Under the pieces are notes generated by a model. It was not told the origin of the DNA. It ran no database searches and saw only the letters and a program-made list of their open reading frames with translations. A stretch of DNA of 64,000 nt. Origin: Quercus robur (taxonomy: Eukaryota; Streptophyta; Magnoliopsida; Fagales; Fagaceae). The stretch lies in contig NC_065544.1 in the NCBI RefSeq assembly GCF_932294415.1, forward strand, positions 11,693,351-11,757,350, in the 5' to 3' direction. The position numbers and the translations under genes were made by a program. Positions 10,801-50,395 of this stretch are shown one piece after another; positions within the stretch are counted from its first letter, which is position 1, and each line of letters opens with the position of its first letter.

Positions 10801-11317
10801 AAACTCCTATAGAAATGCTATCATATGTGTCCTGAGAATATATGATATCACAAAATTTTATGCACATCGCAACACAAAACAGCACCCAAACTGCACTGAA
10901 AGAGGATGGGGGTCTCCAGAAATTTAAATATTTTTTCTTTCCATTTTATTCAATCTTTTTTCCCAGGAGAAGATTAAACCATTTAATGCTCATGATAGGA
11001 AACCAAAGCACAAAAGCATGCTCAGTGCAACAAAGGATTACAAACCTGGTAAAATTCCAAAAGCCTCCCTACTTCAATATGGCCTTCTGCCAATTTGAGT
11101 CTTCTCTTGAGGCCCTTAACACGTGTTTCAGTATCTGTACAGCCAGAATACTTCAATTATGCTCAAGAAAAAAAGAATATATTATTTTTTTTCATTGTGT
11201 ATGTGTTATTTTTCTTTACAGATATTGGTTTAAATCTTGGGATTTCCATTACACAACTGCTCCACCTATTCGTATCAAACCATAGGTTAAACCGCAATTT
11301 TTTTCTCAACTATCAGC

Positions 11318-11360
<43 letters not shown>

Positions 11361-14300
11361 AACAACTTAGACCTGCTATGTCAAATGTTCAGTCACACAC
11401 AAGCAAACTGTGTAGAGTTGCTCTCAAGCCATTGGAGTTGCACCAAAAGGTAGAAATCAAGGAATTTTATATTACTTCAGTCAAAGGGTTCACAAAATTA
11501 AGTGGGTCTAACAATCAATTAAAACCAAAAAACAAAAAACAAAAAAAACAAAAAAAAAAACAAAATCAAAATTAGAATTAGAATTCTCAAATATATCATA
11601 TAAAAGGTGTTACAATGTAAAATCATATTAAGATCTCATTTACCAAGATAAGAATTTTTTAAAAAGCTTATAAAGCAGAAACCACCTTGTATTTGTGGAA
11701 GCTTTGACAATATGGCTGCCATGGTACTCCACTTATCTGTTACTGTGCACATATATATGCACTGTAGGGCACAATCCACAGCTTCAACCTCATCCTTGAA
11801 AAAAACATTACTCTGGAAGTCTGTCCATCCTTCCTCAACTACCATGTCTCTGCATGCTTCCTCAATTACCATCAAGCATATGTCCAACTTATTCTCCAAT
11901 GCAATTTCCTTCATCCATCTTACCAGAAATGACTCATCATTTTTGGAATCTGCAGAAAGATGGTAATCTGGCACCTGACCTAGAGAAACTGAGGCTTCAT
12001 TCTTAAACCTATTTTGCATGAATGGAATTGCTTTATCACGTAATCGTTTAACCACATTCTCCTCTTTGACACCATTGAGCATCATTCTGAATTTATCATA
12101 GTCAGATAATTGCTCCCACTCAACAAGACTTATACTGATACTCGTGTCACCATCACTGTCGTCAGAATATATAAGATGGTGCAAGTATGAGACATCCTCA
12201 AGGAATTGCTGCAATTCACTGATACCTCTGTGATAAGCAAAGTCAAGCAAGTAGAGGCAATTATCTAGCTGCCCAGTAAAGCTATCAATGTCTCTAGCTC
12301 TATTCTTGTACCATCTTGAAAGTTCGGTAGTTGATGGCCAAACATATCCTTGGCACCGCTTAACCATGGGTTCCGTTCTGATCTGGATACCAATCTCATT
12401 ATTTTGGGGCAATCTGCTTATAAAGCTTACCATCTTCTCACATTCAACCCAATCTTCTTCCCTCACAGCAACATTGGTGGGAGGAGACTTCCCAGGAAGA
12501 AGCTGCCCATACGTTTGTACAGGAAGTGTTTCAGGTATAGCACCTAAAACCTCCATCATGAAAGGAGTCAGAGAAAAAGGATGACGCTTGAATAGGAGGT
12601 TCAAGGCCCCAATTTTGCCACTTCCAGCAAGTGTAACAGCGGCTTCATTAATAGGCATAACACGAAATTCACGGTACTCCTGCACAGAAAACCTGCACAA
12701 CACTATGTCATTAAACTGTGAGTCAGTAGAAACAATCAGAGGAAAGTAATATAAATTGAAGCATTACACAATTTATCAATGATAATCATGCTATGGCACG
12801 CAATTTTTCAGTGAAAAATTACCTGCATTTTACCTTTGTAATGAAAAAAAAAAATTAGTGATATAAAAATTAAAATTCTTCACAATACTCAAATAAAGAA
12901 TAATCTAAACACCAACATGCGTATTGAATATTCTAAATCTGGTGATCAATGTATCTAATAATAAATTTTTTTTTTTTTTAAAAAAAAAAGGTATTCTGAA
13001 GTTTGCATTTATGGGACATAGAGACATTTAAACACTTTGGCAAAAGTCTATAAAAGGTTTTTAAAGAAAAAAAGAATTCCTAAAATGGATAGCAGTAAAT
13101 CTCATTCTTTTTTCTTTTTTTGTATGTAATTGATATGAAAAGCCCATAAAATCAATAATAAATCAGGATTATAAATTCAACCATTCCCTTCCATTTAATA
13201 AGATTTTAAGTACTTAAATAGTCTCTTTTGAATTGTCAAGTTGTAAATATTTATTTACAACGATCTAAGAATAGGTTATTAAATAGTAAGATGTATAAAA
13301 TTTCCTCACTTTTTTTTCGGGGAAGGGGGGCGGGGGCTCTTCCTAGAGGTCACAACAACATTCCTATTTGGAAATAAGACATCTCTTTTAATTGATTTGT
13401 ATTTACAACATTATAACATTGTTGAATGGACCCATTTGAAAACAACAAGATGATGACAAAATTATCAAAGATTGGCATTCCTTGTTCCTATACATTGACA
13501 TATGAATGGTTCCTGGATTTGACCAAGTGATTTTTGAATCCTTCTTCCTTCCTCTATTACCCAAATATTATATCTTATTCATCTTTTCATTTTTAAGATA
13601 AGCTGCATCTTGCTATACTGCTCCAGATTTAGATTTTGCAAAATATTTGCAAGCATGTTAAATTAGTAACAGGAAGGAGGTTAGATAATAAAAATGTTGA
13701 GCAGGAATGCATAAACAAAGAAATTCGTACAATAAATATATCCTTGCAGGAATGCATAAACAAAGAAATTCGTACAATAAATATATCCTTCTCCCATATC
13801 TATGTAATCTAGTTGAACACCTAGAGTTTATATGATAAGAAGTCTTATTCAAATATAGATCCCATAATATATAATGAGAACTTTTTTTTTTAATTCCATA
13901 GTTGGGAGGGGGGAGGATTTGAACCTTAGACATCTCTATTGGAAATACCATGAAATGCCAAATTGAGCTACAAGGCTCTTGGCCCCAAAATATATCATGA
14001 GAACTATTTTAAAAACACCACATCTACATGAAAAAAAATATAGTCCGAACTATGCTATGATAGAGTTGAGAGAAACTTCAATTAAAAAAAAACATTTATG
14101 ACAGACTATAATTGATTAAATAATATCTTCTATTTCTTTCTTAAGAGTATATGGCTTTAAATCCTTCAAAGTTATGTTATTTCAGCAAACAACAACAACT
14201 ATAGATTCTGCAAAAGCATAATACCTGCCCATATTAATCCCTAGATAGGTTTCCAGCCTGTCTCTGAATTGCAGTAATTGAAGTCTAGCCATGCGGAAAT

Positions 14301-17300
14301 CCCAAATCTGGCTACTTTCATGATCTTCTGGTTCCGAAAACCTATATTGGTTAGTTAGGCGCAGCCCGTATGCAAGCAAAGCCTTCACAGCATCTTCTGT
14401 AGGTCCAACTTTATCTAGACATTGAGAAATTACAAAAGCTTGATCCTTAATATTAGACAAAAACTTATTTATGTCATTAATGCCTAGGCTGGAATGCAGC
14501 CACTGCGACTTTAAAACTTCATCTTTATCCATCCCATAACAACCAGCAAAGTCCAAGGCAGCCTCATACTTTTGCTTGCTAATTAAGATATTGTACATTT
14601 CAGGAACAGATCTCTCAGAAAATGATATCAAACTCCATTGCAACCTAGAAATATCAAATTGATTATATCTATCTTCAGTAATCAGCTCCACATGATGCAA
14701 GCCATCTGTTTCCCCAAAATTTGATGCCTTGTATCTGTCTTCAGATGGTGTAGTCTCCAAAAGAAATATGTGTCCTGGAAACTGCTGTACCATTTCTAGA
14801 ACAGGCATGGAATATACAGCATCATCCTGCTGAACTTTTGAACCACTTAGGATATCAAGCATGGTGACAATACCACTCCGTTTTACAAAAGCAATGATAT
14901 GGTCAGACCACCAAGTAAAGTCCACAATATCAGTTATAAAGTCCCCGCCTCCATTTGACAAACTATTGGTCACTTGCAAGTCGTTTATCCCTCTGCAAGC
15001 AAAACTTGAAAGTGAAAAGCATTCTTTATCCAGCTTGAAAATTTGCAAGCATCCTCTAACATCTGATGTAGCAACAAAGTTGACCTGCGGTGAGATTAGC
15101 ACCTTTGGATATGATAGCTGACCCACAGAACCATTTGATTTAGAATACAAGCCCTCAAACTGAGTAGAGAACAGTTGCTCCATATCCAGGAGTTTACTTC
15201 TACGCCAAAGAGAAATATTAGAGGGTCCTGCAAGGAAATTATAAAACCAATTATTAAATACTTAAAGAATAATCTTGTTTGGTAATTTAGTTTTCCATGT
15301 TTCAAGAAAGTGATAAATATTCATAATAGAATCTAAACAACTTTGTACAAGACACAGAAGAGACTCAGACACCGTGACTCCCAAACCAAGAACATTGATC
15401 TTCAGGTTTTTAGATATGGTTCACACACATTAATTGAGGACAAGCAAAAGCATGGACTGTCAAAGCTAGGACAATCTGATAAGTCTGAAATGTTAAAAGG
15501 ATTTATGGCTCATGGTTGCATGTCTGGTATACAAGAAATGATGTTAATTACACGAAGACCTATACACTCACACACATGCGCACAAAATGTTCACCATAGG
15601 AAAATAAAGAAGTAATACAGAAACATACCAAAGTTCCCACCAGAGGTTAGTGAGCCGCTGACAGAACCGCCAACAACAACCAGCAATGAAAGTTCTGGAT
15701 TGTAGTCAAAGCAGAAAACATTGTTAAACTGCTTCGCAGGTGTTAAGCCACTATCTGAGGTGAGAGCAGAGGATATTGAGGCACTTGGCGCCTGACTGAT
15801 CTCAATATGCTGTAAGGAACCATCTGATGTAACAATAATGAAGCTGCACCTGGAAACATTTCCAATAACTTATACAGATGCCAAGTTGTATTAACCTCTG
15901 GAGTGGTCAAAAAATAAAACCAGAACCTCCAGCCATAAACAAGGTTGACAAGAAACTAGTCCTCGTAAAATTCTTTTAAAATTTCATGAGAGGCTGTGGA
16001 CAGAAAAAGAACACTTACAAGAAAGATCTCTGTTTGTCAGAATCATTCTGTGCAATCAGGCCTACTATTGGTACAGAGATTTTCAAATGCTTCCTTGTAA
16101 TTCTTGTTATCTCTTCACCATTCACTTTAATAAAATATAGTGTACCAGTATCATCAGCAACTCCAAGAACATCATGACACTCAGACCAAGTTCCTGTAGT
16201 GAATGTAGCAAGGCTTCCACCTGATACATGGAAGATAGGTTAGTAAAAATCATCACAACAAATGCAATAACATACAAAGCTGACAAAGATGAAGGGTAAT
16301 AGCTTATGGATTTGATAGCACTTACACCAAACCATCAACATCAATCAAATTTTATTTCACAAAATTACTGCAAACTTGAATCCTCATGAGCAACTGCACA
16401 TATGCTTATACTTAACCCCACCCCCCAGCTTTTCTCTTATGTATAGAGATTTTTTCATTATTTGATTATTTGGTTGTTCCATTTCCAATAATGGGTAGAC
16501 TTCTAGAAATAAAGGACTAAGTCATAAGAGTATGCTTCAATGCAAACATTAGGCGGCTACATGGCTAATCCATTAAACTATATATGTACAACATTATATA
16601 TCCTTAGCAGAATATAATGTGTCTGTGTTTTCATCTGTATTTATTATAAAAAATAAAAATAAAAAATCAGAGCTATGTCTCAACAGTCTTGATACAAAAA
16701 ATAATAATAATAAAGGGTTATATGATAAAGTATCAGTGTTACATGTTATTAGGCATTACTAGACATTTTTTGAATACTTCCATATGCTGGCATCAATAGG
16801 AATTAAGCCTATAATATATTTTCGGTTAAGTTAAATTCACATAAGAACAAAGAATATATAAATAATTAGATTATACCATTTTTATATATATGACACCAAA
16901 TGCCAACATTTTCAAGGATTTACCTCTGTAGTCAATTTAAAAAATTGTTGATCTAACCACCAAATTGACACAAATCTCTCCGTTTAGAGCATATAGAAAA
17001 ACATGTAATGTGATAGCTAAAACCAATGATATCAGAAGCATATTTCACTCATCAATGATGTCAACAAATTGAACTTACTAGTAAAAGTTCCACAGGGTTC
17101 CAGGTAGTCATCATCCTTCTGCAGAATTGTTATCTGATTTCCAGAAGCCACAGCCACACGTTCACCTCTTCGAGAGATAAACAAGGATATCATTTTTTTC
17201 AATGTTCTCGGTCGCTTGTATTCACTCCATTTGTCTTTGAGTTGACTCAGACCTTCAAGGCATTAGGCAAAAGAATCATAAAATTTATAAACTGCCAGAT

Positions 17301-18887
17301 ATTTTTTTTGATAAATTAAACGGCCAGATGTTGGCCAATGCACGCACAGTGAAATTCGAAAAACATTTTCCAAACAAAACACGCACACATTGTTGGGTTA
17401 TAAATTTATTATAATTCTTTGACAAGACAAATGCTTCTTCTTGTAAGACACAACTTGTACAATTGACAAGAGCCTTGTAACTCAACTAGCTAAGACATCC
17501 AAGATTCAAGTCCCATATTTCTCATTGTAACTATCAGAAAAACGTCACAACTTGTACTGTAAACTTCACCTTAAAAATGCTACTTTCAATAAACTAGAAT
17601 AACCCACAACATCAAAAGCACGAATGAGACATTTTTTCTATAAAACGTAACAAAACCATAACCATAGAACTTCAATATTTACTCTTACACATGGCAGGTA
17701 TAAACCAAAGAGTGCCAACCAGCAAATGATGGCAGATACCCATCTACATTTATGATCTTATAATTCAATTACAGACATGAACAAACATATCCAATTCGAA
17801 ATGCTAGAAAGAGCACATAAATTTATACCACTAACATTGCTTAATTAGAATCAATATGTTTTCGCTAAATAACTATTCATTATAACCTATTAAGAATACC
17901 CAATATAGCCAATGAGCTCTAGCTCAACTAGAACCTACTCCCCTGCAAGTACTAGGTGGAGTGAGGTTGTGCATTCAAAACTCACCGTGTGTGCAACTTT
18001 CCCTGATCAAAAAGAAAAACAATACCCAATATAAAATAATAATAATAAAAAAACCCATTTTATTTATCATACATATAACTCGTTTGAACTAAACTTACAA
18101 GTAGTTACAACTGTCATATAAAATTCCTAAAGATGAAATTTTGACAAAAGAACATATTCTTCACAGTTCAATTCTCATGTTAATAAACTACCAACAAATA
18201 AATCGAAAATCTTGACCTTCAAGGCATGTATAATAAAAAATGCGCATTACGATAAAATTACAAACAGGGGTGCCCATTTGCATAATTGCATGTGGAAGTT
18301 ATATACTAGAACTTGCCAACCAGCAAATAATGTCAGATACCCATTTGCATTTATCATCTTATTATTCAATTACAAACATGATCAAATACAATTTATTCAT
18401 TAAAAAAAAAAAAAAAAAAAACCCATTTTCACTAAATAGCTATTCATAAAAGTTATAAATAAAAAAATAAAAAATAAAAAGCTATTTTAACCAATCTTTC
18501 AAAAACTGAACAAAGATCAAAATTTGACCAAAGAACGTGTTCTTTCACGGTTTATTTCTCACGTAAATTATTAAATTTGATCTTCAAGGCACGTATAGTA
18601 AACAAAGTGAAAGTGCATTACAATAGAATTACAAAGAGACCCACCTCGTGAAGAAAGCAAGGACAGGAAGCTTCCTCTCTCAGCTTCATTTGCCTGAATT
18701 CAGTGTCAATTTGATGATTTAATTTCAACAAATTTATAAAAAAAATTAAATTAAATTAAATTAAAGGATTAAAATTAGGTTTTTGGAATTGAACCTGTTG
18801 AGGAGGGTAATTGGGAGTGTAGGGTTTAGAAGCGTGATGACGTGTCTCGTATAGCACAGTCTGTGCGTTTCGTTCTTCCATAGCCAT
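4833..18887 (-). CDS. MIP2: MIP2: MAG2-interacting protein 2, plant NBAS/Sec39 homologue
   Basis: Complete gene of 12 exons, 2439 codons plus stop: 18887-18795, 18693-18645, 17252-17079, 16220-16019, 15849-15629, 15227-14225, 12692-11686, 11134-11046, 10566-10207, 9240-8001, 7824-7559, 7448-4833. All junctions are GT-AG and keep frame. The start [20 protein letters not shown] and many blocks such as [14 protein letters not shown] and FLLNLVDAF match plant MIP2 as I know the family (about 2,380 aa in Arabidopsis). Residues 1 to about 450 form the NBAS N-terminal propeller-like region; the helical Sec39-type region follows over the middle exons. A tryptophan-rich acidic patch ([13 protein letters not shown]) begins near residue 2149. 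The protein is a peripheral ER-membrane subunit of the MAG2-MIP1-MIP2-MIP3 (Dsl1/NRZ-like) complex that tethers Golgi-derived COPI vesicles at the ER and is needed for seed storage protein export. No disabling change was seen. A decayed copy of its 5' end lies at 27092-27595. Confidence 0.96.
11318..11360. repeat. (CT)n(CA)n compound microsatellite in MIP2 intron 7
   Basis: A run of CT repeats passes directly into CA repeats inside the intron between exons 7 and 8 of MIP2. Nothing suggests a coding role. Confidence 0.9.
13701..13790. repeat. Exact 2 x 45-bp tandem duplication in MIP2 intron 6
   Basis: The unit beginning GCAGGAATGCATAAACAAAG occurs at 13701-13745 and again at 13746-13790 with no difference seen between copies, so the duplication is recent. 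It lies in the 1.5-kb intron between exons 6 and 7. Confidence 0.95.
13883..13988 (-). mobile_element. tRNA-derived SINE in MIP2 intron 6
   Basis: On the minus strand the element has an A-box-like TAGCTCAATTTGGC and a B box GGTTCAAATCC, and ends in an A tail (poly-T at 13883-13892 on the plus strand). It is flanked by 17-bp direct repeats with one mismatch: 13866-13882 and 13989-14005 (AATATATMATGAGAACT). Target-site duplication, A tail and Pol III boxes together support a SINE. It is not a tRNA gene because no cloverleaf can be drawn. Confidence 0.85.
17690..18640. repeat. Diverged tandem duplication inside MIP2 intron 2
   Basis: Block B (contains GCCAACCAGCAAATGATG) at about 17690-17890 recurs at about 18290-18455, and block C (contains CTTCAAGGCATGTATA) at about 18090-18260 recurs at about 18500-18640. 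The order B-C-B-C shows a tandem duplication of a unit of about 0.35-0.4 kb. The second C copy runs up to exon 2. The first copy carries a SINE that is absent from the second. Confidence 0.85.
17908..18020 (+). mobile_element. tRNA-derived SINE in MIP2 intron 2
   Basis: 113-bp element starting GCCAATGAGCTCTAGCTCAA and ending in an A-rich tail, flanked by perfect 13-bp direct repeats AATACCCAATATA (17895-17907 and 18021-18033). The A box is clear; the B box (GTGCATTCAAAACTC) is degenerate. The matching place in the duplicated intron block near 18455 has no insertion. Confidence 0.88.
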
Positions 18888-18906
18888 AGCTAAAATTCGA
18901 GATCTC

Positions 18907-18915
18907 AAACCCTAA
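18907..18915. promoter_or_regulatory. Telo-box AAACCCTAA in the MIP2 leader
   Basis: AAACCCTAA lies 20 bases upstream of the MIP2 start codon (reads TTAGGGTTT in the direction of transcription). Telo-boxes near the transcription start are common in plant housekeeping genes. The decayed copy at 27092-27595 has lost the perfect motif (CAACCCAAA). Function here is inferred. Confidence 0.5.
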
Positions 18916-19272
18916 AAAAAAACCATTAACGCACTCACATGCATTTCAAAGAATGAGAAGAGTTAGAGGGAGGAGTGAAGGCGAATACGACACCGTTTTT
19001 GGGATCGGAAGGTTTATATGTATTCTAGTACAGGTGAACTTGTCGTACGACACTGTTTGTTTGAAATTCAAAAGTAAGGGAAAAGGAGTTAAAAGACATA
19101 GAAGGCCCAGTCCAATTGTGTATTGTTGGATAAGGCTTTTGAGGTTTCCGAGATAAATGGGTTTCAGCCCAAACCAAATTTAATTCATCTGAATTATTAT
19201 GAAAAAATTTAGAGAAAGAGAAAATTTGTGGAAAAAAAAAAAAGTAGGGAGGGAGAAAGTGAGAGAGCTCAT

Positions 19273-20130
19273 CCTTTGAAGATGTTTCAGATACTGGTTT
19301 TGGTCCTGAAAACCCTATCTATATATAACATGGTGAACATGAAAAAAAAAAAGAAAATTAAATGATTATTAATCAAGAAAAAGTAAAATACAGACCGCAA
19401 AAAAGTTACTAAGGGTAGTTAGTAAAATATGGTACTCATATAATACAGCAAGTATATGGGCGGATATATTTCGGCATCTTTCAAAAAAGTATGTTTCAAA
19501 AATTCTTATATCTATATTTGAGCATTCGAATGTTACGGGTAGTGATTATTACGGAATTTTAACTTTCAAATTGAAATTAACACATTTATCACTTTATCTT
19601 TGGAAATAGAAGGTTAAACGTGAATTATTTTAATTGTTACATACGTACGCGAATTTTACGCATATATGATGCGTTTGAACTAATTAGTCTAAGACAATAA
19701 CATGATAAAAAATTATATTGTACTCACTTGTCTGTAAGTGTGTTAAACTATTAAAATTCATAATTTTCTAACAATTTAAACTTTTAGGATAAAAGGTAGT
19801 TTTTTTTTTTTTTTTTTTTTTTTAGTATTAAGTGTGATAGTGTCAAAATATAAATGATAAAATTTATTATTTCTTATCGGTTTATACTTTTATAATAATT
19901 GGTCATTTATTAAGGATCGTAAAAAAAAATGCCAATTTTCACCAGCTCTTTTATGAACTTGTGACATCTTGTTTGAGGTGAAAATTTGAAGTTGGTTAGC
20001 TGAGCTCTCTCTCTCTTTTCTTTTTTTTCTCCTATTTATTGCCTCAAGTTGTTGGTGTATAATCTTATCTGACCCTGATCTTGATTTCTACTGAGGAAGC
20101 CTCATATATTTCTAGCACTTTAGTTGGGCT
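19273..20130 (-). pseudogene. PCaP1/DREPP pseudogene fragment (exons 4 to 2 remnants)
   Basis: Colinear with the intact gene at 31317-32589. The start of exon 4 is recognisable at 19273-19313 (CTTTGAAGATGTTTCAGATA on the plus strand against CTTTGAAGATGCTTCAGATA in the intact copy). Intron 3 similarity runs through 19314-19931 with about 290 extra bases. Exon 3 (about 19932-19985) has an internal deletion of roughly 50 bases, and the end of exon 2 is at about 20068-20126. Exon 1 and most of exon 4, including the acidic C-terminus and stop, are missing. It cannot encode a protein. It lies between the MIP2 promoter and GPN3. Confidence 0.88.
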
Positions 20131-20580
20131 GCCACAGCCTCAAATTTTTTTTTTTTTTTTTTGGTTAAGAAAAAAAAGGGGTTCATTAGGTTACACTAGG
20201 TCCCAGATAGGGTGTTAGAGTTGGACTTTGTTATAGCCAACTCGTGTGGATGCTTACTAACGGACTCCTGCTAGCAACAGACTCGAATCTAGGTGGATTA
20301 GACAAAACGTCCGAATCTTATCAACGGAGCCAAACCCCGTTGGAATTTTTTTTTATTAGATATAATCTCTTACAAATCCTTAGGTCCCTCCTCTTCAAGA
20401 TTATCAGCCCACTAACCCAGACAGCCCAGCCCAACTTCCCAACCCCAAAAACTTAGTAAGAACAAAAATTAAAAAAATTAAAAACCTATTAGCCTTTAAC
20501 TGAGAGTTTTTTTTTTTTTTTCTTTTTTTTTTTCTTTTTTAAGAATCAACTAAGAGTTAACAAACCAAATTCAGAAGAGA
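20131..20580. other. Region upstream of GPN3
   Basis: Starts where similarity to PCaP1 stops. It contains poly-T tracts (about 20144-20162 and 20509-20540) and an anonymous moderately GC-rich block at about 20190-20340 that may be a repeat (it contains a B-box-like GATTCGAGTC on the minus strand). The GPN3 leader with CCGCCGCCGC follows at about 20580-20683. No TATA box was fixed. Confidence 0.45.
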
Positions 20581-20683
20581 GAGTCAGGAGTTGAGATTGT
20601 GAGAGACCGAGAGAGTGACTCACTCAGCCACGCCGCCGCCGCAGCCAGTCGGCCGGAGTCTACACAAAACACTCGTTTTTATC

Positions 20684-23600
20684 ATGGGGTATGCACAGCT
20701 TGTTATTGGCCCTGCTGGCAGTGGCAAGGTAAATATTTTATTGTCACAGTCTAATCTAAATTCTATTTCTATATATGTTGCTTCTTATTATTTTTAAATA
20801 TGGTTGGACTAACTGACTAACTGTTTACACTTTTATTTATATATACACTCAGTCAACTTATTGTTCTAGTTTGTACCGACATTGTGAAACCATGCAACGG
20901 TCGATACATATTGTGAACTTGGATCCTGCTGCTGAGAATTTCGACTATCCTGTTGCAATGGGTGAGTTAGTTGGGGTTGTTGGTTTTTTTTAAGCTCTAT
21001 CTTGTTAATTAGTTATATATGATTATTTCAGGATAAACTGTTTAGCGCGTAAGTGATTACCCGGTAACTAGTTGTAGCGGGTGGGGTTAGTTACTAGTAA
21101 GAATTTGATTGTAAGTTCTTTTATGTCATTGGATAAATTGTTTAGCCCGTCAGGGGTGAAAAGCTCCTGGATTACCCTGTAACTGGTTCCGGTGGGTGGG
21201 GTCAGTTGCCTGTAAGAGTGTGATTAACAAAGTGAAATTCTCTTACGTCATTTTAAAAAAAAAAAAAAAAAATGTTATATCTTATTTGTTGGATTGGAAA
21301 TGATGGGTTACCAATGAGCTTTAGCTCAATTGACATTTCCTCCTTCCATAATAATTGAATGGAGGTTGAGATCGTAGATTCTAGACCAACTAAGTGTATA
21401 AGTAACTTGCCATTTAAAATTTGGAAATGATGTGTTGTTGGCTTTTTTTCCCCCTCTTGATTGCAGATATAAGGGAACTCATTAACTTGGAAGATGTCAT
21501 GGAGGAACTTGGGTTGGGTCCCAATGGGGGCCTTATGTACTGCATGGAGTATCCTTCATTAAATTTGTACAAATTTTTTCTTCATTTACTTGTGATTATT
21601 GTCTATGTTTAAGTCCATAAGGACCTTGAATGTTTTTACCAGTAAAGCTGTAAGCATGCTTGTGTTGGCTACCTTGAATGATTATCTTGCTGCAAAATGA
21701 ATGGCCTTAATTTCCATATTTAGACACCTCGAAGATAATCTTGATGATTGGTTGACAGAAGAATTGGACAACTATTTGGATGATGACTACTTGGTTTTTG
21801 ACTGCCCAGGTATCCCTACTTGTCTAGTTGTATGCTTGTTTGTGTATTTGTTTATATTTATCATGATTTTGACTTCCCTTTATGGCAAACTACTTGTTAG
21901 TTGTAGTTTGTTTCCATATGTTGACAATTTATGGATGTCTCATGACCATGGAAAATGCATAAACACAAAAGCAGAGAATACCTTAAGATATTTTTCTAGT
22001 TTTAATTTTATTTTTTGTTTTTTATACAGTATTTTATCCTTAATTTGCAGTAGATCATTTATTGCCTAGTAAAAAAAGAAATGTAAGAAGAAAGAGGGCT
22101 AGTGGTCTTTGGATCTAGTGGGATTTCCTCACCCCAGAAATATGGATTGGAGCATAAGGTTATCTGTTCAATTCCATATAGGTGTGTGAATTGTATTAAT
22201 CTATCCAGTAATTTTTTATTTAAAATGAAAAAAATATTTTGGGGTAAGTTCTAGTGTCCCAGGAATCATTCTTGAATATTTTAGGGAGTTGGCAGGATTG
22301 TCCTTGTTCCTTTCATGTTCACTATTGTGCAAATGAGCACCCTGTAGTAATGAATATCTGAGATCCCATACCAATTTTGCCTTAGTAAACATTATGAAAG
22401 GGGAAACTTTGGAGGTACCCATTAACTTGACTAGTAAAATCTCTTGGCCTCACTAAGGGGGGAGAGCTCTCTCTCTATCTCGTAAATTTTGCGTTTACTA
22501 TAAGGGTGACTGGAACTTTTACTTTTAAAAGCTAGAGAAAAGTAGAAAGGGGATTGGAAAAAATGTAAGAAGAAAAAGACAAGCAACATGAACCTTGAAT
22601 GAAACCAACTAAATTGTAATGGAAAAATGTCTCAATGATTTCATTTTATTTTATAAGTAGGAATATTTTATTAAAAATATATATATATTTCATGTGTGAA
22701 GAACATAAAGAAGCCTAAAAAATTACAAAGAATAAGTAATCATTTGCAGAAGTATCGACTCTTCAAAATCAACATTAGAATTGCTATTGGTAAAACCTCA
22801 TTCATGGAAGTTCTAATCAACAATTTTTGCAATTGATTCACTGAACTTAAATCTTCAAAAGCACGGTGATTCCATTCCTTCCGCAAAATCCACATCAAAC
22901 ATAAAGGGACTAAATTCCAAATTGTTAAATGAGTTCATAGAGCATATCCTTCCTATTTCAGCCAGAAGATGTTCCTAGCAGTTCTGCCGATGAAAAATTG
23001 GATTCTGCATTTCCAATGAGCTATAGTTCAGTTGGCACCTCTCCCCCTATGAATTCTAGGTAGGAGGTGTTGTCTTGGGTTGAAGAACCATTGGGCTTAT
23101 CAATCAAATAAAAAAGATTCAGCATTACCACTCATATTTTAGCCCTTTGATGTGATATAGAGTGGATATTTTGAGCTTGTATCTTCAACATGCCTATTTC
23201 ATAACTGCAAAAATATAATTATATATCCTAACCTTAAGATATATATTCAGGCCAGATAGAACTCTTTTCACATGTGCCAGTGCTGCGTAATTTTGTGGAA
23301 CATTTGAGGCGTAAAAATTTCAATGTTTGTGGTGTATACTTGCTTGATTCACAGGTTTGTATGAAATTGGTTTCTTGCTTTGGCTTGTTCTTCTATCATG
23401 AACTGTCTCATAATTAAAACTAATGGTTTCAATATTTTATTATTAGTTCATGACAGATGTGACCAAGTTCATTAGTGGTTGCATGGCATCACTTTCTGCA
23501 ATGATCCAACTTGAATTGCCCCATGTTAATATCCTCTCCAAAATGGACCTTGTGACTAACAAAAGGGATGTTGAAGAGTGAGCTCTTTTACCATTACTAC

Positions 23601-26088
23601 TTTATATAACTTGTATGGTATACACCATTTTTATTAAATTTAACAATCTAATATGTTTTGTACTTTTACTGCTCTCAGTTTTCTGAATCCAGAGCCTCAG
23701 TTTTTGTTATCAGAGTTGAATCAACGCATGGCTCCTCAATTTGCTAAACTGAATAAATCTTTGATTGAACTAGTGAGTAACTAAACTACTTATAATTTTA
23801 ACACATTGCCTCTGCTGGAAACTACTTGTCAGTATTGTGGTCACATATAATCAATGTTGATCTACTTTGCATTTCTTTTGGAGTGATCTTGATATCAGTG
23901 TAAACTTCTTTGGTGTTTTAAGGATATCTTTATTTTAATTACTTTCCGACTGCACATTACGGCTGTCCCTGACCATTTTTTGCTTATGTTGTATGAAATT
24001 TGTCGTATGAAGCATCTCCATTTACTCTGATTGGTAAGTTACACACGCACCCAATGAGTCTTGAACCCATGACCTCACCCTCTACCTAGCATTTATAAGG
24101 GGGAGGAGGTCTCAGTTTAACTAGAGGCTAGGAAACATCTTTATTTTTTAGAGGTACATGATTAAGTTTCTTGGAAGAGATACTCTTTCGTGAGTGGTCT
24201 GTTTTCTTAGTTAGCTTCTCCTGTATCAGGGTATTGTAGATGTGTTGATTTGCGGTTCTGGTTGTATGATCTGTATCAATATTTTACTCTCATTTGGGAG
24301 ACTACGTATTCTGATATAACATAAGTTGCACCATCTTAGATTGCACATTTACCTGAGAGCTTATAAGGAATTAATTATTCTGTTAGTAAGTATTTTTTGG
24401 TTGAAGCATTGTAATTGTGCATGGTTATGTGATTTGTAGTAATTATCGGCCTTCATTGGTTGTAAAAGATTATTTTCATTTTTCAAGCAGCAAAATTGCT
24501 CTTGGTCTCTCTTTTTTTGACCTGCAATGGGGATTGGCTGGATTTTTTGAAACTATTATATAATTTTTGTTGTTTTAGGTGGATGGGTTTAGCATGGTGA
24601 GTTTTGTGCCCCTTGACCTGAGGAAGGAGAGCAGGTATTCTCTCTCTCTCTCTCTGACAGTATTATGTTGTGCTTGCAAACTTAGCTTTTGTAGTTTTAA
24701 CCTATGAAAAAAATCCTTGGAACTGGATTTATGAAATTTTTTTAAAAGTTTTTGATTATTTTAGTCCAGAGGTTTATTTACCTTGGGATTTATCATTTGA
24801 ATAAAAAAAATTTAGGCTGACAGTGAAATGTAGTTAAAAATTTCAGATGGCATTTAGATTTAAATTTTGGGACTATGATTCTTATAGTTTTTGCTGTCTT
24901 CTTGACTGAATATGGTGTAGCATAAGTTTTCTTATTTGCTCAACTATAGAAGAGTGGTGGAGTTGCCTGTGTTGGCATCAAATTGATGCCTTTAATAGGT
25001 TGCATTCTACTTAATATATTTTTTATTTCCGTAACATTGGGAATAGGTTTAGGATAATGTCCGAAGACTAAAATATTTCAGTATAAGAAAAGGTTTTGCT
25101 CATCTTATTTGTTAAGCTTGGTGATAAATCAGCCTAGGAAGGAAGACAGATGGTTGAACCTCTGAAGTCACAACAAAGAATGGATAAAATAAGAGTGAAA
25201 AGAAAGAAAAAAGATCAAGGTTTAAAGAACTGGAGAAGACAAGTGAAACTAGGGAATCAATAATACCTACAAAAAAAAATACTTAGGCTGAATCGAACAT
25301 TACCCTTTTGGCCTATTATTTATTGGTCGGATTGTTGTGACCCTTTACCCTTCAAGAGTCAAGACCTACATGAGGCTATCTTTTCTAGTGCCGTCGAGGT
25401 TCTTGCAGGGTGTTTGGAAACAAGAGAACTGGTTTAGTTTGGTTTTAACCAATTCCAAGACAGTGAAATAAATTTTGAATTGGTTTTATTTGATTTGTTG
25501 TTTCTCGAAACCTAAGCCTGTATTTGTAAACCAAAATTTCTGCCATACTACATTTTGTCACTTGCCAGACACCATACGTTGCCATTTCTTTTGGGGGTCT
25601 GCACTTAGGATTTTAGCGTTGAAACCCTCTCAAAACCAATAATACATTTGTCAGAACTTTAGCTAATTATTTGCAATGAAGAAAAAAATCATTTGCAACT
25701 AAGATTTATTAAAAATAAATCTTAGTTGCAAATGATTTTTTTCTTCAGCTGCTGCACAGTTGGTAAAAGATCATATGTTGAAGCTTCAGGCTTCAATTGG
25801 TGGTAGAGAAAGTGTACTATATATGTTCTTAATTATTAGTGTTTCTTTTGTTCGTAGACTTCCATATTTATCTTGGCTGGTTTGTTTACTTTTGAAGTCA
25901 TGAAATATTTTCAAGCAAATTTAGTTACAAAGATGACATAATTCCGATTTTTCATATAATTAGAGGGTAAATGTTGACTTGTCTTTTGCAGTATACAATA
26001 TGTGCTGGCTCAAATTGACAACTGCATTCAGTACGGAGAAGACGGTGATGTGAAGATTAAGGATTTTGATCCTGAGGATGATGACTAG
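20684..26088 (+). CDS. GPN3: GPN3: GPN-loop GTPase 3
   Basis: Complete gene of 9 exons, 267 codons plus stop: 20684-20728, 20853-20961, 21467-21548, 21724-21809, 23251-23354, 23447-23577, 23679-23772, 24579-24634, 25992-26088. All introns are GT-AG and frame is kept. Protein starts [15 protein letters not shown]: the P-loop (G1) is residues 9-15. The family signature GPN is residues 69-71 ([11 protein letters not shown]), G3 is DCPGQIE at 105-111, and G4 is SKMD at 173-176. The C-terminus is acidic (DFDPEDDD). Length fits the family (about 270-285 aa). GPN GTPases act as dimers; GPN3 with GPN1 is known to help assemble and import RNA polymerase II in the nucleus and cytoplasm. The start is chosen because the P-loop follows immediately, as in all members. 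It is the only gene here on the plus strand and sits between paralogous MIP2/PCaP1 fragments. Confidence 0.96.
21031..21252. repeat. Diverged tandem duplication in GPN3 intron 2
   Basis: Units 21031-21130 and 21131-21252 both start GGATAAA[C/T]TGTTTAGC and end TTACGTCATT or TTATGTCATT, with a shared GGGTGGGGT core. The second unit has about 20 extra bases. Confidence 0.75.
21310..21420 (+). mobile_element. tRNA-derived SINE in GPN3 intron 2
   Basis: Starts ACCAATGAGCTTTAGCTCAA, the same head as the MIP2 intron 2 SINE. It is flanked by 16-bp direct repeats with one mismatch, TTGGAAATGATGKGTT, at 21294-21309 and 21421-21436. A-box-like sequence is present; the B box is eroded. Confidence 0.85.
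23012..23115 (+). mobile_element. tRNA-derived SINE in GPN3 intron 4
   Basis: Starts TCCAATGAGCTATAGTTCAG, has a B-box-like GGGTTGAAGAACC and ends with AATAAAAAA. Flanked by 11-bp repeats GATTCWGCATT at 23001-23011 and 23116-23126 (one mismatch). Confidence 0.82.
24024..24131 (-). mobile_element. SINE-like element in GPN3 intron 7, reversed
   Basis: The reverse complement contains CTCTAGTTAAACTGAGA (A-box-like) and GGGTTCAAGACTC (B box). Candidate target duplications GAARCATCTYYATTT lie at 24009-24023 and 24132-24146 with three mismatches in 15, so this is an old insertion. Confidence 0.65.
25678..25746. repeat. Perfect 33-bp inverted repeat with 3-base loop in GPN3 intron 8
   Basis: Arm 25678-25710 and arm 25714-25746 are exact reverse complements separated by AAA. 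In RNA it would form a 33-bp hairpin. No coding content was seen. Perfect arms imply recent origin or conversion. Confidence 0.95.
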
Positions 26089-26420
26089 ATTTATCTTATC
26101 TGTTGACCGCAAGAAAATATATTACTGTTTCTGTGTCAATATGTAGGATCAAATTATAAACTTCTTTTTGAGAAAATTCAATCCGATCTTGCAGAATGGA
26201 AATCAAATTTGATGTCTCTGGAAGAATTACTCTCGGCCAATCTATCACATAACCAATTCCAACCTAGTTGTCATGGACCCATGGTTTTAGAATTTTCCCA
26301 AAGTCTGAAATGATAAATGCTGTAGATTATGTTACTTGTTTTGTCTTCGAGTAGATTTCATTTCTAAAGTTTGGTCCAATTTTTGAAAACTTTGGCCAAT
26401 TAGAAAATTATGGTTGTACT

Positions 26421-26675
26421 TTTAAGACTTGGCCGTGGGATAGATTTTCCCGCTAACAATATATGTGAATAGGCAAATTTTATACTCAATATTCTCTTAA
26501 GACTTGGCCGTTCTTCTTCTTCTTTTAAGACTTGGCCGTGGCCCGTGGGATAGATTTTCCCTCTAACAATATATGTGAATAGACAAATTTTATACTCAAT
26601 AATCTTTTAAGACTTGGCCGTGGGATAGATTTTCCCTCTAACAATATATGCGAATAGACAAATTTTATACTCAAC
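26421..26675. repeat. Imperfect tandem repeat, three copies of about 70-80 bp
   Basis: Copies at 26421-26490, about 26523-26600 and about 26605-26675, each with TTTAAGACTTGGCCGTGG and GATAGATTTTCCC near the start and AAATTTTATACTCAA at the end. A partial fourth copy (TCTTAAGACTTGGCCG) lies at 26495-26510. Confidence 0.9.
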
Positions 26676-26891
26676 AGTACCTTTTTTTTATAATCAACAA
26701 CCTAATAGTATAATAGAAACATTAGATTTTTCTTAAAATTTCCTCATGTACCCTAACACCAGGTTCAAAAAGTTTGCCTTTTCATGCTAGTTTCAACACT
26801 AGTATAAAACATGCTAACTTGTGGTATCTCCTTGAATTTTTAATGAAGACATGTGAGGTTCAAATTCCTTCCCCTAACCATTGAATTATTT

Positions 26892-26896
<5 letters not shown>

Positions 26897-26927
<31 letters not shown>

Positions 26928-26929
26928 AG

Positions 26930-26959
<30 letters not shown>
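26897..26959. repeat. (GA)n(GAA)n microsatellite
   Basis: GA repeats change into GAA repeats without interruption. Confidence 0.95.
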
Positions 26960-26960
<1 letters not shown>

Positions 26961-27091
26961 GAAGAGAATGCTACATACGCACAAAATTTGACAACACTTT
27001 TAATGTTATTGATGTAGCAAGCATATACCGATTCTCATCTAGACTCATCATTGACAATACTTTTTTACCTATCACTTACAATTATGTCAGT

Positions 27092-27595
27092 GATGATGTG
27101 TCTTGTATAGCACTGTGTGTACATTTTGTTATTCCATTGCCATAGCTAAAATTCGAGATCTCAACCCAAAAAAAACCATTAACTCACTTAAATGCATTTC
27201 AAGAATGACAGAGTGAGAGGAAGGGTGTTTTGGTCATTTTATTTACTGAGAGAGAATGCAGGTTTGGCTTGGTGGTGGAGAACTAAGCAGAGAAGAATGA
27301 GGCCTAAAGGAGTGAATACAACACCATTCTTAGGATGCTAAAATGTTGTTATCTACTAACTATTCTGATACAACCATGGTTTTAAAAACCGAAACAATCA
27401 AATAACCGGAATTGAGTTTGGTTTTCGGTTTTTACCATATCAGATGGTTTGGTCCGGTTTTTAAAACCATGGATATGAGTCATATGACACTATTCGTTTG
27501 AAGTTCAAAAGGCGGACAGTGAAAGCCTAGTCCAACTATGTGTTTGGATAAGGCTTGAGGTTTCCAATTGTGTGCAAGCCCAATCTAATTGAATG
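27092..27595 (-). pseudogene. Decayed copy of MIP2 exon 1 and upstream DNA
   Basis: Aligns by eye with 18837-19190. The minus-strand reading of the exon part gives ATGGCAATGGAATAACAAAA, i.e. MAME then a stop, against MAMEERNAQ in MIP2; further residues (TVLYKTHHH against TVLYETRHH) remain recognisable. Upstream similarity continues through TAAAATTCGAGATCTCAA and CATTAAC, then patches such as ATAAGGCTTGAGGTTTCC up to about 27595. It starts within exon 1, so only the 5' end was copied or kept. A 99-bp MITE sits inside it at 27374-27472. It has no open frame. Confidence 0.88.
27374..27472. mobile_element. MITE with perfect 18-bp terminal inverted repeats
   Basis: Begins CCATGGTTTTAAAAACCG and ends with its exact reverse complement. 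The corresponding stretch of the intact MIP2 upstream region lacks it, so it inserted after the duplication. The target duplication is not clear. Confidence 0.82.
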
Positions 27596-28897
27596 TTACA
27601 GCCACAAACTATTTTACAAATTGTTATTATGACAAATTTTTATTAGTTCTCATTTGGACCCACCATTGACATAACTTTTTCACTTACAAATAATCACTGA
27701 CTACATTAGCAATTTGTAAAATAAAATTGTAAAAAAGTTTGTAATTCCAGCATTTTCCAATGTAGTTAATTTTGGTTATACAGGAAAAAAAATGTCTATA
27801 AGTATATAGGCACAAATAATTTCATAATTATCAAGGTTGTAAGTTGTTTTTGCTAGATAAACAAATAATGTCAGTGATGAGCTTAGACAAGAACCACTAA
27901 AAACTTGTTAATTTAACTGTTGTGAAAATTGTTGTCTTTGGCATTACTCTAAATCTATCGTTCTATTTGTTTTTACAATAACATTTTTTTTTTGGAAAAT
28001 GAATCATTTTTCTAAAAATTATTTTCTAGATAATTATCTTATTTTCTAATTATACTTGGTAGCAACCTTAAAATAATTTGGAAAACTATTTCTACAGTTT
28101 CCTTATTTAACTTGGCGTGAGATAGAGTTATTTTTTAGAAAATTTAAGTGAAAAACAACTCTAACTCATGCAAATCTTAAAAAGATAAGTTAAGAAATAA
28201 TTTTCATTTAACCCATTTTTTTCTAAGACTATCAAATACAAAAACAAAAAAAACAAAAAAAACAAAAACACAGAAACCTGTCTTCACAAAAGGTTTTTCA
28301 TAAAAATAAACGAAGTCTTGCATTGAAAAGGACACATAGGCATCCCAAATTGCATTCTAGGTGGCATAAAATTATTATTTTAATCTTAACAATTATAATG
28401 TCAGATTTTTTTCATCCATTATTTAACGACAATGACTATTTTGACCAAAAAAAAAGGTTAAAGACTAAATATAAAATCACATATTTGAAAGGTTAGGAAA
28501 CAAAAGGTAATTAAACCAAAGAAAATTACACAAAGGTTCTCCGCTTAAGCCAACTTGCAAGGTTCACCATTACGTGAGAGAGTGGCTAAATATACTAAAT
28601 ATATGATATCTTTTTCCTCACTCTGGGCCCATAATTAGCATTCGTCATTCAATGAGTACCATGGCCATGAGCCAAAATTCATGTGTAATTTGAATTTAAA
28701 TTGTATTGTTGAATTTTCATATGTGAGTGGAAATTCTAAATAATACAAAATTTTAAATATTAAAATAATATAATTGAACTCAATTTATTATGGTTAAGTT
28801 TTTGATATATTTAAGTAGTATTTTAATATATTATATTAAGCCCTAACTTGAAATCCTACAATGATTAGGCTTTTATTAGAGAGTGATAAGTATAATT

Positions 28898-28947
28898 AGA
28901 ATTACACATTCATTAATTTTAAAAAAAATTAATGAATGTGTAATTCT
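28898..28947. repeat. 22-bp-arm inverted repeat plus a third copy
   Basis: AGAATTACACATTCATTAAT at 28898-28917 pairs with its reverse complement ending at 28947, with a short A/T loop. A third direct copy of ATTACACATTCATTAATTAA follows at about 28963-28982. Confidence 0.85.
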
Positions 28948-30623
28948 TGACCATATAGAAAATTACACATTCATTAATTAATAATGAAAAATGTAACAAG
29001 TAGATGAACCTATGAGTCTTCCCTGGTCTGAAAAAACCCAATTACATGGAAAATAACATGCACATTCTTACACGAAATAAATAGATAGATGTTTGTCATG
29101 TTAGCAAGTACAACAGTGTTTGAAATCATGCCATTTTAATTTATAGTATTTTTAAATTATCAAATAGGGCCCAAATGAGTACATCTTGACCATATACTTT
29201 CTTTATTGATAAAGTGAGCTGTCGACATATTTTTCGATTGGAAATTGTCGTTACTTTAGGCACAAAATAGTTTTAAAAGTTGATATTAATATAAGTTTCA
29301 AGACTTTGATTGCTTGTTTCGTATTAAAAAAAATAAATTAATAAACTTTAATTGCTTAGCACTTCGATTTTATCTATTAGGAAACTCTTTTTGTTGGATA
29401 TGGCGGCGGGTTGGCTGTTGTACTTGTCCACAATGCGTTGGACATAAATTTCACTATGACTCAATAGAGGTCTCTAATTAATATAAGCTAGTCTTTTCCC
29501 CTCCAATGTCTTTGTAGTTAATTACCGTATTAAAAAATAATAAAACATAAAATAAAATAAAAATTACCATAGCTAAAGGTAATACTAGGGTTGAATGAAT
29601 TATGCTTGGAAGTGAGGCAAACAATTTATTTCTTTATTTCTATAAATAAATTTCTTATTTGTTTTTTATTTTGTATGAATTGTCTTTGTGTTTGCTTTGT
29701 TGTAGGATGGAACACTTGTCATATTTGTCTAGTGTTTGCTTTGTTGTCATATATTGAAAAGCCAAAAAAAGTCAAATCATGAATTTTTTTTTTAATATTT
29801 CGTTATTTAAGAGAGAGAATATGAATAAACAAAATTTTACTCCAAATTAAGTTGGTGAAAATTTACTTTAACCTATTAAATGATGATTGAAATAACTATT
29901 TATATTTACTTTTGATTGCATAATATATTTAAAAATTGTATGGTTGGTTAATTTAGATGATTTATTGGCCATCAACTAAAAACAAACACACATAAATAAT
30001 TATTATATATCATATCACTTCACCCAAAAAAGAAAAAAAGAAAAGTCATGTCACCCTTATAAAGCGGGAATTGCATGCACTGAAACCCCACACATTGCAC
30101 ATAGTTTTGGCCAACTTTTACGTCTCACACCAAACGCCATGTTATTCTCCACTAATTCCGTTTGTTTTCTAAAGGCTAAAACCGCTAAAATTAAGGCCGG
30201 TTTGGTACATGTGCTTAAATGCATATTTTCAGTTTTTAAATAATATTATACGTATTTTTACATATATTTTCATTACACGTATTTTCAAAAAATACAAACA
30301 ATATTACTTGAACAACGTTACCAAACGGCTCCTAAAATATTACAATGTTGTAAAAATATTTTCCTCTTTTAAGACCTATGCGTAATTATCAAGCACTTTT
30401 AAGAGAATGCTTAAATTTTCCTCCTACTCTAGAGCTAGAATCTTAGACTGAAATCAAATGTTGAAACTACTTTGGATCACTATTCCAAAGGAAAAATTTC
30501 ACCAGAGAAGCATGATTACAAAATTGTAGTTGATGAAAATGGATCAAGTGGATGTACCCTAGATTTACCTTTGGAAATTTAACGAATCTATTTCTAATAT
30601 TAAAAACTATATAATAATAAGAG

Positions 30624-30790
30624 TAATGCTACAGTCACAAATTATTTTACAAAATGTTAATGTGGCCAACCTCTTATTGGTTTTCACTTAATCCCACCAT
30701 TAATATCACTTTTTCATTTACCAATAGTCACTCACCACATCATCAGTTTATAAATTTTTTTGTAAAATAGTTTGTATCTATAGCATTATT
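30624..30790. mobile_element. MITE with about 30-bp terminal inverted repeats
   Basis: Left end TAATGCTACAGTCACAAATT and right end AGTTTGTATCTATAGCATTA are inverted copies, followed inside by ATTTTACAAA / TTTGTAAAAT. It is flanked by TAATAATAA-like sequence. A related copy lies at about 27596-27757. Confidence 0.8.
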
Positions 30791-31316
30791 CTAATAATAA
30801 TAAATGTTACTCGAATAAATCATATTTGTGAAAAATTGTCACCAAATATTTATGGTTTTACAGTAAAAATCATTTTTAACTCAATATGTGACAATTTATA
30901 AAACTATTCATGTATATATATATATATTTTTTAAAGTCATGTGATTAGAAGTATATATAAATTTGGAGGTAATATTTTTTTTTTTTTTACATTAGCAAAA
31001 ACATTTTAAAAAAAAAAAATCCTTATGAGAGAGAGAGATAAATCCAAACAAATAACTCCTTATGAGAGCATTGTTTTTTTAATTACATCACTTCACTATT
31101 TTGTAAATGATACAATTAATTCACAAAATTTATACACTTAAAACATAAATAAAAAGCTTTGAAAAAGTTTTTTAAAAAAAACCCATAATAAAACAAATCC
31201 AAGAGATCTTACAAGAAGAGGATGGAGGAGATGAAAGAATAACAAATCAATATTTCACTTTTATAAACTTTCACACAAAGTTCACTTTAATAAGAGAGTT
31301 CCTGTACTTGATTTTA

Positions 31317-32589
31317 TCAAGGCTTTGCTGGTTCTGCAGCTTCTTCTACCTTTGCTTCAGGCTCAGTTGGTGTTGGTGTTGGTTCAGCTTTCTCAGCCTC
31401 CACCACCACTTCTTTTTTCTCTTCTTCTATTTTCTCCACCACGTCTTCTTTCTTCTCTTCTTCTTCTATTTTCTCTACCACCTCTTCTTTCTTCTCTTCT
31501 TCAACAAGTACTATCTCCCTCTCTTTTTCAGTTGCTGTTGTTGCTGCTTCTGGGGTTGGCTCGACTTTCTCTTCTGTGACGATGAAAGTTGATACCTTCT
31601 CAAAAACAAAGAAAACTGGGCCTGGAATCAATGCTGGACCATACTTTGAAGATGCTTCAGATACTGGTTTTGATCCTGGAAACTCTGTGAATATATAACA
31701 TGGCGAACAGGAAAAATAAAGAAGATTAAACGATAGTTAATCATGAAAAAGTAAAATACAAGCCATAAAAAGTTACTAAAGACAGTAACATAACAAAAAA
31801 ATTATATTGGACCCACTTGTTGGTAAGAGTGCTAAACGGTTAAATAGTAAAATTCATAATTTTTCTAACAATTTGAACTTTTGGTATAAGTTGTAGTTTT
31901 TTTTTTTTTTTTTTTTTTTTTTATTTAAGCGTATTAATTATCATAGCATATGGCCTTGAGTTAAGTGTGACAGTGTCAAAATATTATAGTTAAATGATAA
32001 AATTTCTTATTTCTTATCATTTTATGCTTTTATAATAATCTGTAAATTAAAAAAAAAAATCCATACCAATTTTCACCAGCTCTTCTATGAACTTGTGAAC
32101 TGCAACTGAGTGCTTCTTCAAGCCTGGCTCCTTAGGTTCCTTAACCAAAGTCTGTTTGAGGTGAAAATTTGAAGTTAGTTAGCTCTCTCTTTCTATTTTT
32201 TTTTTTACCTATTTATTGCCTCTAGTTGTTGGTGTATAATCTGACCTTGACTTCTACCGAGGAAGCCTCATATATTTCTAGCACTTTAGGTTGAAGCTCA
32301 GTCTTCTTCTCTTCAAACTCCTTAGTAATTTGCTCCTAAACCAAATACACACATATCAAACAATAGTAAGAACCTTTTTTTGAGCTATTCTTTACATAAG
32401 CATGTATGAAAACATCAAAAAAGGTTTTTAGATTTTTTTTTGTTTGAAGATAGAAGTAGATTTTAAGTAACATACCTTAGACTCGTCGAAGGACTTGCAA
32501 GCCTCAGCAGCAGCAGCAGATTTCTTGGTACCATTTTTCTCGAAAACCTTCTTGATCTTTGGAAGAACTTTTGATTTCCAATAACCCAT
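31317..32589 (-). CDS. PCAP1: PCaP1/DREPP: plasma membrane-associated cation-binding protein
   Basis: Complete gene of 4 exons, 218 codons plus stop: 32589-32476, 32335-32246, 32151-32067, 31684-31317, all GT-AG, frame kept. Starts MGYWKSKVLPKIKKVFEKNG: Gly2 fits N-myristoylation and the Lys-rich segment fits the region that binds phosphoinositides and calmodulin in Arabidopsis PCaP1. The DREPP core (KTELQPKVLEIYEASSVEVK, EELVKIEFPGSKPVSEASS, PGPVFFVFEKVS) follows. From about residue 120 the tail is Glu/Lys-rich, with repeats of VVEKIEEEEKKE, ending in a Pro/Thr/Ala-rich stretch. It has no membrane-spanning segment. The family is bound to the plasma membrane, binds Ca2+ and Cu2+, and is linked to PtdInsP signalling and microtubule or actin effects. 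TA and GA microsatellites lie just upstream (32714-32766). A broken paralogue is at 19273-20130. Confidence 0.94.
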
Positions 32590-32711
32590 CTCGTTTCTTA
32601 ATTCAACTATGTTACCTATATAGCCTATAACAAAAACAAACAAACTAAGCAAGAGCAAAAATCAAATACTTAAAAACTCAAAGGTAACCTCTTTTTTTCT
32701 TTTTTTCTTTT

Positions 32712-32713
<2 letters not shown>

Positions 32714-32766
<53 letters not shown>
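32714..32766. repeat. (TA)n(GA)n microsatellite in the PCaP1 5' region
   Basis: TA repeats followed by GA repeats, about 125 bases upstream of the start codon. GA tracts often occur in plant leaders or core promoters, and the TA run could supply a TATA element. Either role is inferred. Confidence 0.7.
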
Positions 32767-32770
<4 letters not shown>

Positions 32771-33192
32771 GACAACAATATTCACAGATAAAATTGCTAG
32801 AGATCCACCACAAAGACAAGAGAGAAACTTGATGAAGCTAAGAGAATCTGTCTCTCTTTTTCTCACTTACCCTCTAAACTCTGTGTCTTTGTCGTAGCTA
32901 CTGTGGTCTCCAGTTGAAGTGGACCTCAATGCAACTATTCCAGCAATTGTCCCCTCCAAATCAATGCATTATGAGCTTAACCGTGGCATCAAAATATAGA
33001 CATACTTCCTACCAAACCAACCCCCAGGTTCCAATTTAATTACCAAAATACACACCCACTTTTTTTTTTTTTGGTAAACAATACACACCCACTTGTTCTT
33101 TTACTCTAGCCACCCTGTCAATCATATGATCTTCATTACCCTCCTTTGTCTATTAATTAAATGCAGTTTTTATTATGCACACTCTATTACAC

Positions 33193-33458
33193 GAGAAAGT
33201 ATACCATATTTCGGTAATATCAACTCGGTATCTGTTTTGGTATTTCCTACTCAATAAATGAGTGACACCTGTTTCAAAAAACCACATCCGACTACTCTAA
33301 TAAATGATTAATTTATCTTCCCGATAGTATAAAAGATTGTGATTAATTTATTGGAGTAATCTGATGTGGTTTTTTGAAACAGATGTCACTCATTTATTGG
33401 ATAAGAAATACCAAAACAGATGCTGAGTTGGTATTACCGGAACATGGAATACTTTCTC
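33193..33458. mobile_element. Mutator-like MITE with long inverted repeats and 9-bp target duplication
   Basis: Inverted arms of about 110 bp (33193 to about 33305 and about 33345 to 33458) begin GAGAAAGTATACCATATTTC and are some 85% identical by eye, with a spacer of about 40 bp. A perfect 9-bp direct repeat CTATTACAC flanks it at 33184-33192 and 33459-33467. Long terminal inverted repeats and a 9-bp target duplication are the marks of Mutator-type elements. No transposase is encoded. Confidence 0.88.

Positions 33459-43642: not shown

Positions 43643-50395
<6,753 letters not shown>

Follow-up and report, generated by a model that had tools for sequence, protein, structure and literature searches.

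Probable direct duplication of a MIP2-PCaP1 segment on either side of GPN3 in Quercus robur

Genes and duplicated blocks

Three genes, MIP2, GPN3 and PCaP1, lie in this order in a 64,000-nucleotide stretch of Quercus robur DNA (NCBI RefSeq assembly GCF_932294415.1, contig NC_065544.1, positions 11,693,351 to 11,757,350 of the forward strand; hereafter the window, whose own numbering is used throughout), and parts of the outer two occur again on the opposite side of GPN3. MIP2 (NAG/NBAS, Sec39 domain) occupies 4833..18881 on the reverse strand and is apparently intact, as judged from its long open reading frames (ORFs) and from Pfam Sec39 matches on three of its pieces, one slightly below cut-off; its left limit is taken from the last long ORF. 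MIP2 exon 1 (18795-18881, reverse strand) comprises 29 codons, the last of them read by hand. GPN3 (20684..26088, forward strand) is intact in a splice model of nine exons encoding 267 residues, with a Pfam ATP_bind_1 match and GPN-loop GTPase 3 (9t5j_C, E 2.9e-88) as its top PDB match. PCaP1, a member of the DREPP family, is intact at 31317..32589 on the reverse strand, where four exons (32476-32589, 32246-32335, 32067-32151 and 31317-31684 in the splice model) encode 218 residues without an internal stop; residues 1-214 of 218 match Pfam PF05558 at E 2.9e-76 and 256.4 bits (cut-off 23.2).

Comparison of the window with itself returned two direct, same-strand, colinear matches, block M (the MIP2 start and its 5′ flank) and block P (PCaP1 from exon 2 to exon 4, 19270-20123 versus 31640-32289). 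The left, working copy of block M, delimited by self-comparison and gapped alignment, spans 18834..19175 on the reverse strand; its core (18834-18973 versus 27090-27224) is 85% identical at E 5e-36 in the whole-window self-comparison, and the gapped alignment extends to ~19175 versus ~27590. Block P comprises a piece at 19270-19412 versus 31640-31779 (84%, E 5e-36) and another at 19691-20123 versus 31779-32289 (69% with gaps, E 3e-71). In local alignment, block M scored 170.8 and block P 472.2, against maxima of 32.4 and 43.0, respectively, in 200 first-order Markov shuffles per block. The original prediction had proposed a direct duplication of equal order and strand with GPN3 between the blocks, and both off-diagonal matches that it foresaw are present, on either side of the intact nine-exon gene. 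Its coordinates are off by no more than a few bases, apart from its left block M and the ends that it put at 27595 and 32335, all of which overrun the homology somewhat. That the resemblance arose by chance or as an assembly artefact is hardly credible: nothing was found in favour of either, E-values go down to 3e-71, and a non-coding divergence of 11-13%, together with separate insertions in each copy, argues against one piece having been assembled twice. The duplication is real, was correctly spotted, and is of an ordinary type for plant genomes; of itself it leaves views on the function of MIP2, PCaP1 or GPN3 unchanged.

Both MIP2 and GPN3 also carry repeats of their own. Early in MIP2, probably within an intron, a 101-bp direct repeat (17685-17785 and 18286-18386) recurs at a distance of 601 bp with 81% identity, and a weaker match joins 18129-18267 to 18512-18638. 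The last GPN3 intron contains a near-perfect 71-bp palindrome (25677-25747, 96%), and directly downstream of the gene a unit of 71-79 bp is found three times (26419-26696).

The truncated copies and their edges

The left PCaP1 copy is a relic (19270..20123, reverse strand), as aligned to intact PCaP1 and its spliced model. It retains 44 of the 90 bp of exon 2, intron 2, intron 3 and 45 bp of exon 4, is short of ~50 bp in exon 3, and has neither exon 1 nor the 3′ end. The left gene, cut at both ends, is thus broken and the four-exon, 218-residue gene at right is whole; a broken left and an intact right PCaP1 had been predicted. Introns 2 and 3 of the relic align to those of PCaP1, which classes it as an unprocessed (DNA-level) pseudogene. 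An alignment gap within its intron 3 marks a left-only insert of ~275 bp (19417..19690) with CTAA at each edge, a probable small transposon. The right edge of the relic, at 20123-20128 within exon 2, lies beside a further insert (20149..20345, reverse strand) that resembles a short interspersed nuclear element (SINE), with a poly-T end and putative A and B boxes of the tRNA type; ARAGORN and an Rfam gathering scan of this insert gave zero matches.

The right MIP2 copy, M′ (27090..27591, reverse strand; self-comparison and alignment), holds just 16 codons of MIP2 exon 1, of which codon 3 is a stop, and 5′ flank. Its start at 27090 falls within exon 1, and the adjoining MIP2 stretch 18700-18833 finds no match in 26600-27150, where it ranks 656th and 529th of 1270. 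Since it amounts to 16 codons with a stop at the third, M′ was probably never a gene copy, though a larger right MIP2 piece may have been present and been deleted later. The proposal that the two genes underwent reciprocal loss is consequently half right: one PCaP1 copy did die, whereas MIP2 was probably only clipped. Neither gene is fully doubled, the right MIP2 being 16 codons with flank and the left PCaP1 lacking exon 1 and 3′ end, a caution against reading a truncated fragment next to an intact gene as a sign of two former full copies. Within M′ lies a repeat-like insert (~27377-27469) with mirrored ends, TGGTTTTAAAAACCG and CGGTTTTTAAAACCA; it is probably a small transposon, acquired later than the duplication.

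Repeats of one family border M′ on both sides. A truncated copy (26967..27089, forward strand), aligned by nhmmer to model positions 1-99 of 173, stops where M′ starts, and a full-length copy (27592..27762, forward strand) adjoins the other edge, the sequence from 27592 on being repeat and not MIP2 flank. Resumption of homology past this copy was sought with three queries and not detected: of 214 pieces of real sequence, 38 to 61 scored equally high. The nhmmer model, made from two sequences only, of which the full-length copy is one, yields nine matches in the window (E<1e-2), one a reverse reading of another, leaving about eight places. The presence of the family is by itself unremarkable, though two of these eight places lie exactly at the edges of M′.

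One event or two

A single direct local duplication, which took in MIP2 exon 1, the 5′ flank of MIP2 and part of PCaP1, is the probable explanation of both blocks. The segment would have been copied directly and nearby in one event, leaving the left PCaP1 as a redundant copy that decayed by insertions and by deletions. The deletions would have taken the 3′ end and a portion of exon 3, and under one version exon 1 too. The truncations are complementary, with the left cut within PCaP1 exon 2 and the right cut within MIP2 exon 1. As for age, the Kimura two-parameter distance (K2P) is 0.144 in non-coding block M (95% interval 0.090-0.207, 201 sites), 0.117 in the PCaP1 introns (0.081-0.155, 380 sites) and 0.126 pooled (0.097-0.158, 581 sites), all counted on chosen well-aligned pieces, after removal of inserts, runs of poly-T and stretches of poor alignment, and with the MIP2 coding limit taken as 18884 instead of the true 18881, which puts 3 sites in the wrong class. 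At 1.5 to 6.5e-9 substitutions per site and year, rates that are assumed and not species-specific, the duplication would date to ~42 to 10 million years ago.

Several observations weigh against a single event. The MIP2 parts are 8.3 kb apart and the PCaP1 parts ~12.2 kb, so that the gap between blocks M and P is 94 bp at left (19176..19269) versus ~4 kb at right; the search for a colinear counterpart in the other block was negative for both spacers, and one or more additional deletions or insertions are therefore required. Both relics are sharp-edged on each side, as separately copied fragments would be. Equal divergence fits a single event without proving it, and the comparison has little power at such lengths, as the interval for the difference between M and P (-0.040 to 0.100) spans zero and is wide.

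These features would be accommodated if the ancestral order was MIP2-GPN3-PCaP1 and a piece of PCaP1 was copied beside MIP2 and a piece of MIP2 beside PCaP1, for instance as repair filler. Both spacers would then be native sequence, sharp edges would be expected on each relic, and the occurrence of one repeat family at both edges of M′ would fit. Gene movement by filler copying during double-strand-break repair was reportedly described by Wicker and colleagues in 2010. PMC3445842 describes filler copying of gene pieces in plants, and the present case resembles the process outlined there in that intron-bearing fragments are copied elsewhere with edges near transposon-like sequence, and differs in the distance, which is only ~8-12 kb, and in that pieces would have passed in both directions. 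Two such copyings are nonetheless unlikely, as they would have to be reciprocal, both direct, of equal age within error, and between the same two neighbours.

The position of GPN3 and the form of the duplication

Within the favoured single duplication, two forms differ in how GPN3 came to lie between the copies; the likelihoods assigned to these and to the two fragment copyings are judgements and were not computed. In the form first proposed, the ancestral order was MIP2-PCaP1-GPN3, the unit from the MIP2 5′ end through PCaP1 to GPN3 was duplicated in tandem, and the ends of the left PCaP1 and the right GPN3 were lost. Redundant copies are commonly lost by deletion, so that such losses would be ordinary; this form requires three extra deletions, and we hold it only tentatively. 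As the original prediction had already stated, no GPN3 relic is seen right of PCaP1, whether by self-blastn, flank blastn or tblastn. Self-blastn (E<1e-4) gave no match there to GPN3 coding sequence, the single tblastn row outside GPN3 (E<1) is a chance match in MIP2 (E 0.35), and for the GPN3 leader, exons 1-2 and 3′ flank the best places right of PCaP1 rank 5th to 63rd of 1266-1268 pieces, i.e., at background. Far to the right, flank blastn found a 25-bp T-rich match (52999-53023, E 0.008) and dispersed-repeat matches at ~46.8 and ~47.1 kb. The missing part of the truncated repeat 26967-27089, which two models predict to lie right of PCaP1, was not found there; a repeat copy at 33793-33948 (forward strand) aligns to model positions 7-169, and is thus near-complete, and the flank query 26089-27092 gave no blastn match to it. 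A second GPN3 may have been deleted later.

Some bearing on this form comes from a 37-bp A-rich stretch left of GPN3 (20449-20485), which resembles the PCaP1 5′ leader (32642-32677) and stands in the colinear place. It ranks first in five of 12 lists and second to fifth in the other seven, the lists combining three nested queries with four scoring schemes over 1268-1270 overlapping window/strand pieces each. Its scores of 34-50 under the four schemes barely exceed background, and two control homologies reach 68-125 under two of those schemes. Among shuffles, none of 1000 reached its score of 47 under one scheme and a fraction of 0.012 reached 112 under the other; because a block of A-rich followed by T-rich sequence recurs in the window, the shuffles overstated the match under one scheme. 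A longer query (20346-20684) puts this place only at rank 19 of 412. The sequence after the SINE-like insert (20346-20480) gave no signal against 32290-32600 (shuffle fractions 0.126 and 0.459), nor did the short piece 20124-20148 (0.750 and 0.594). The leader match is a weak hint, and the only one, that the left PCaP1 formerly reached its leader beside GPN3.

In the second form, the breakpoints of one tandem duplication lay within MIP2 exon 1 and PCaP1 exon 2, and the GPN3-bearing 7-kb segment was carried into the junction, e.g., by template switching in break repair, making reciprocal loss unnecessary. The left copy ends in PCaP1 exon 2 and the right copy starts in MIP2 exon 1, as such breakpoints would produce, and the absence of a GPN3 match right of PCaP1 is what this form expects. 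A whole intron-bearing gene exactly at a junction is unusual, however, a deletion is still needed for the left PCaP1 3′ end and for the 94-bp versus 4-kb spacing, and the leader match, if real, argues against a breakpoint in exon 2; we consider this form doubtful. Its most specific version, in which one template-switching break repair copied the MIP2-PCaP1 junction and brought a whole working GPN3 into the new junction, is improbable; if true, a single accident would have moved one gene and left two others with complementary truncations.

Gene order in Arabidopsis also bears on the second form. The next gene identified right of PCaP1 is MCM6 (43643..50274, reverse strand; Pfam MCM, MCM_N and MCM6_C on three ORFs). 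For PCaP1 the Arabidopsis point of comparison is MAP18, which we take to be PCaP2. MAP18 is At5g44610 (PMC4651559), MCM6 At5g44635 (PMC5452130), MIP2/NAG At5g24350 (PMC3654999) and GPN3 At4g12790 (PMC6748027). The locus numbers of MAP18 and MCM6 are close and that of GPN3 is distant, a point in favour of the second form; they suggest that the PCaP-MCM6 neighbourhood at right is old, and do not inform the ancestral place of GPN3. Nothing usable on locus numbers in other plants was found among the literature matches listed, and no paper on this locus turned up in a literature search that was not made by species and is hence a weak guide to the print record.

Local duplication in which the redundant copy is then lost, and tandem duplication with ends inside genes, are both familiar. 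With tandem or proximal gene duplication and copy loss the locus shares a direct repeat of kilobase scale, retained introns and one decayed copy; here, the edges of the unit cut MIP2 exon 1 and perhaps PCaP1 exon 2, and the copies are separated by an intact gene unrelated to them. With tandem duplications ending inside genes it shares two truncated genes derived from the ends of one unit, and differs in that the head-to-tail junction is indirect, 6966 bp containing GPN3 (20124-27089) intervening. The locus offers a still readable case of how small duplications and later loss displace genes in plants over a few kilobases and wear away conserved gene order.

MIP2 and M′ have ~290 bp of 5′ flank in common, and the PCaP1 relic now sits upstream of MIP2, past this shared flank and another 94 bp. 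The suggestion that functional PCaP1 may use regulatory DNA borrowed from a duplicate finds no support, as its 5′ side (32590-33200) is unmatched in the left block, barring the one marginal A-rich stretch; on the sequence, PCaP1 has its own 5′ side at right, and a promoter swap is unsupported.

Other repeats lie to the right. Upstream of PCaP1, ~600 bp from its start codon, is a hairpin-like element (33193-33458) with two 113-nt arms, 88% complementary and 40 nt apart. A repeat of ~1 kb occurs as an inverted pair (33681-34715 and 58591-59586, 71% identity), probably transposon copies, and a near-palindrome of ~370 bp (39444-39810) is 76% identical to its own reverse complement.

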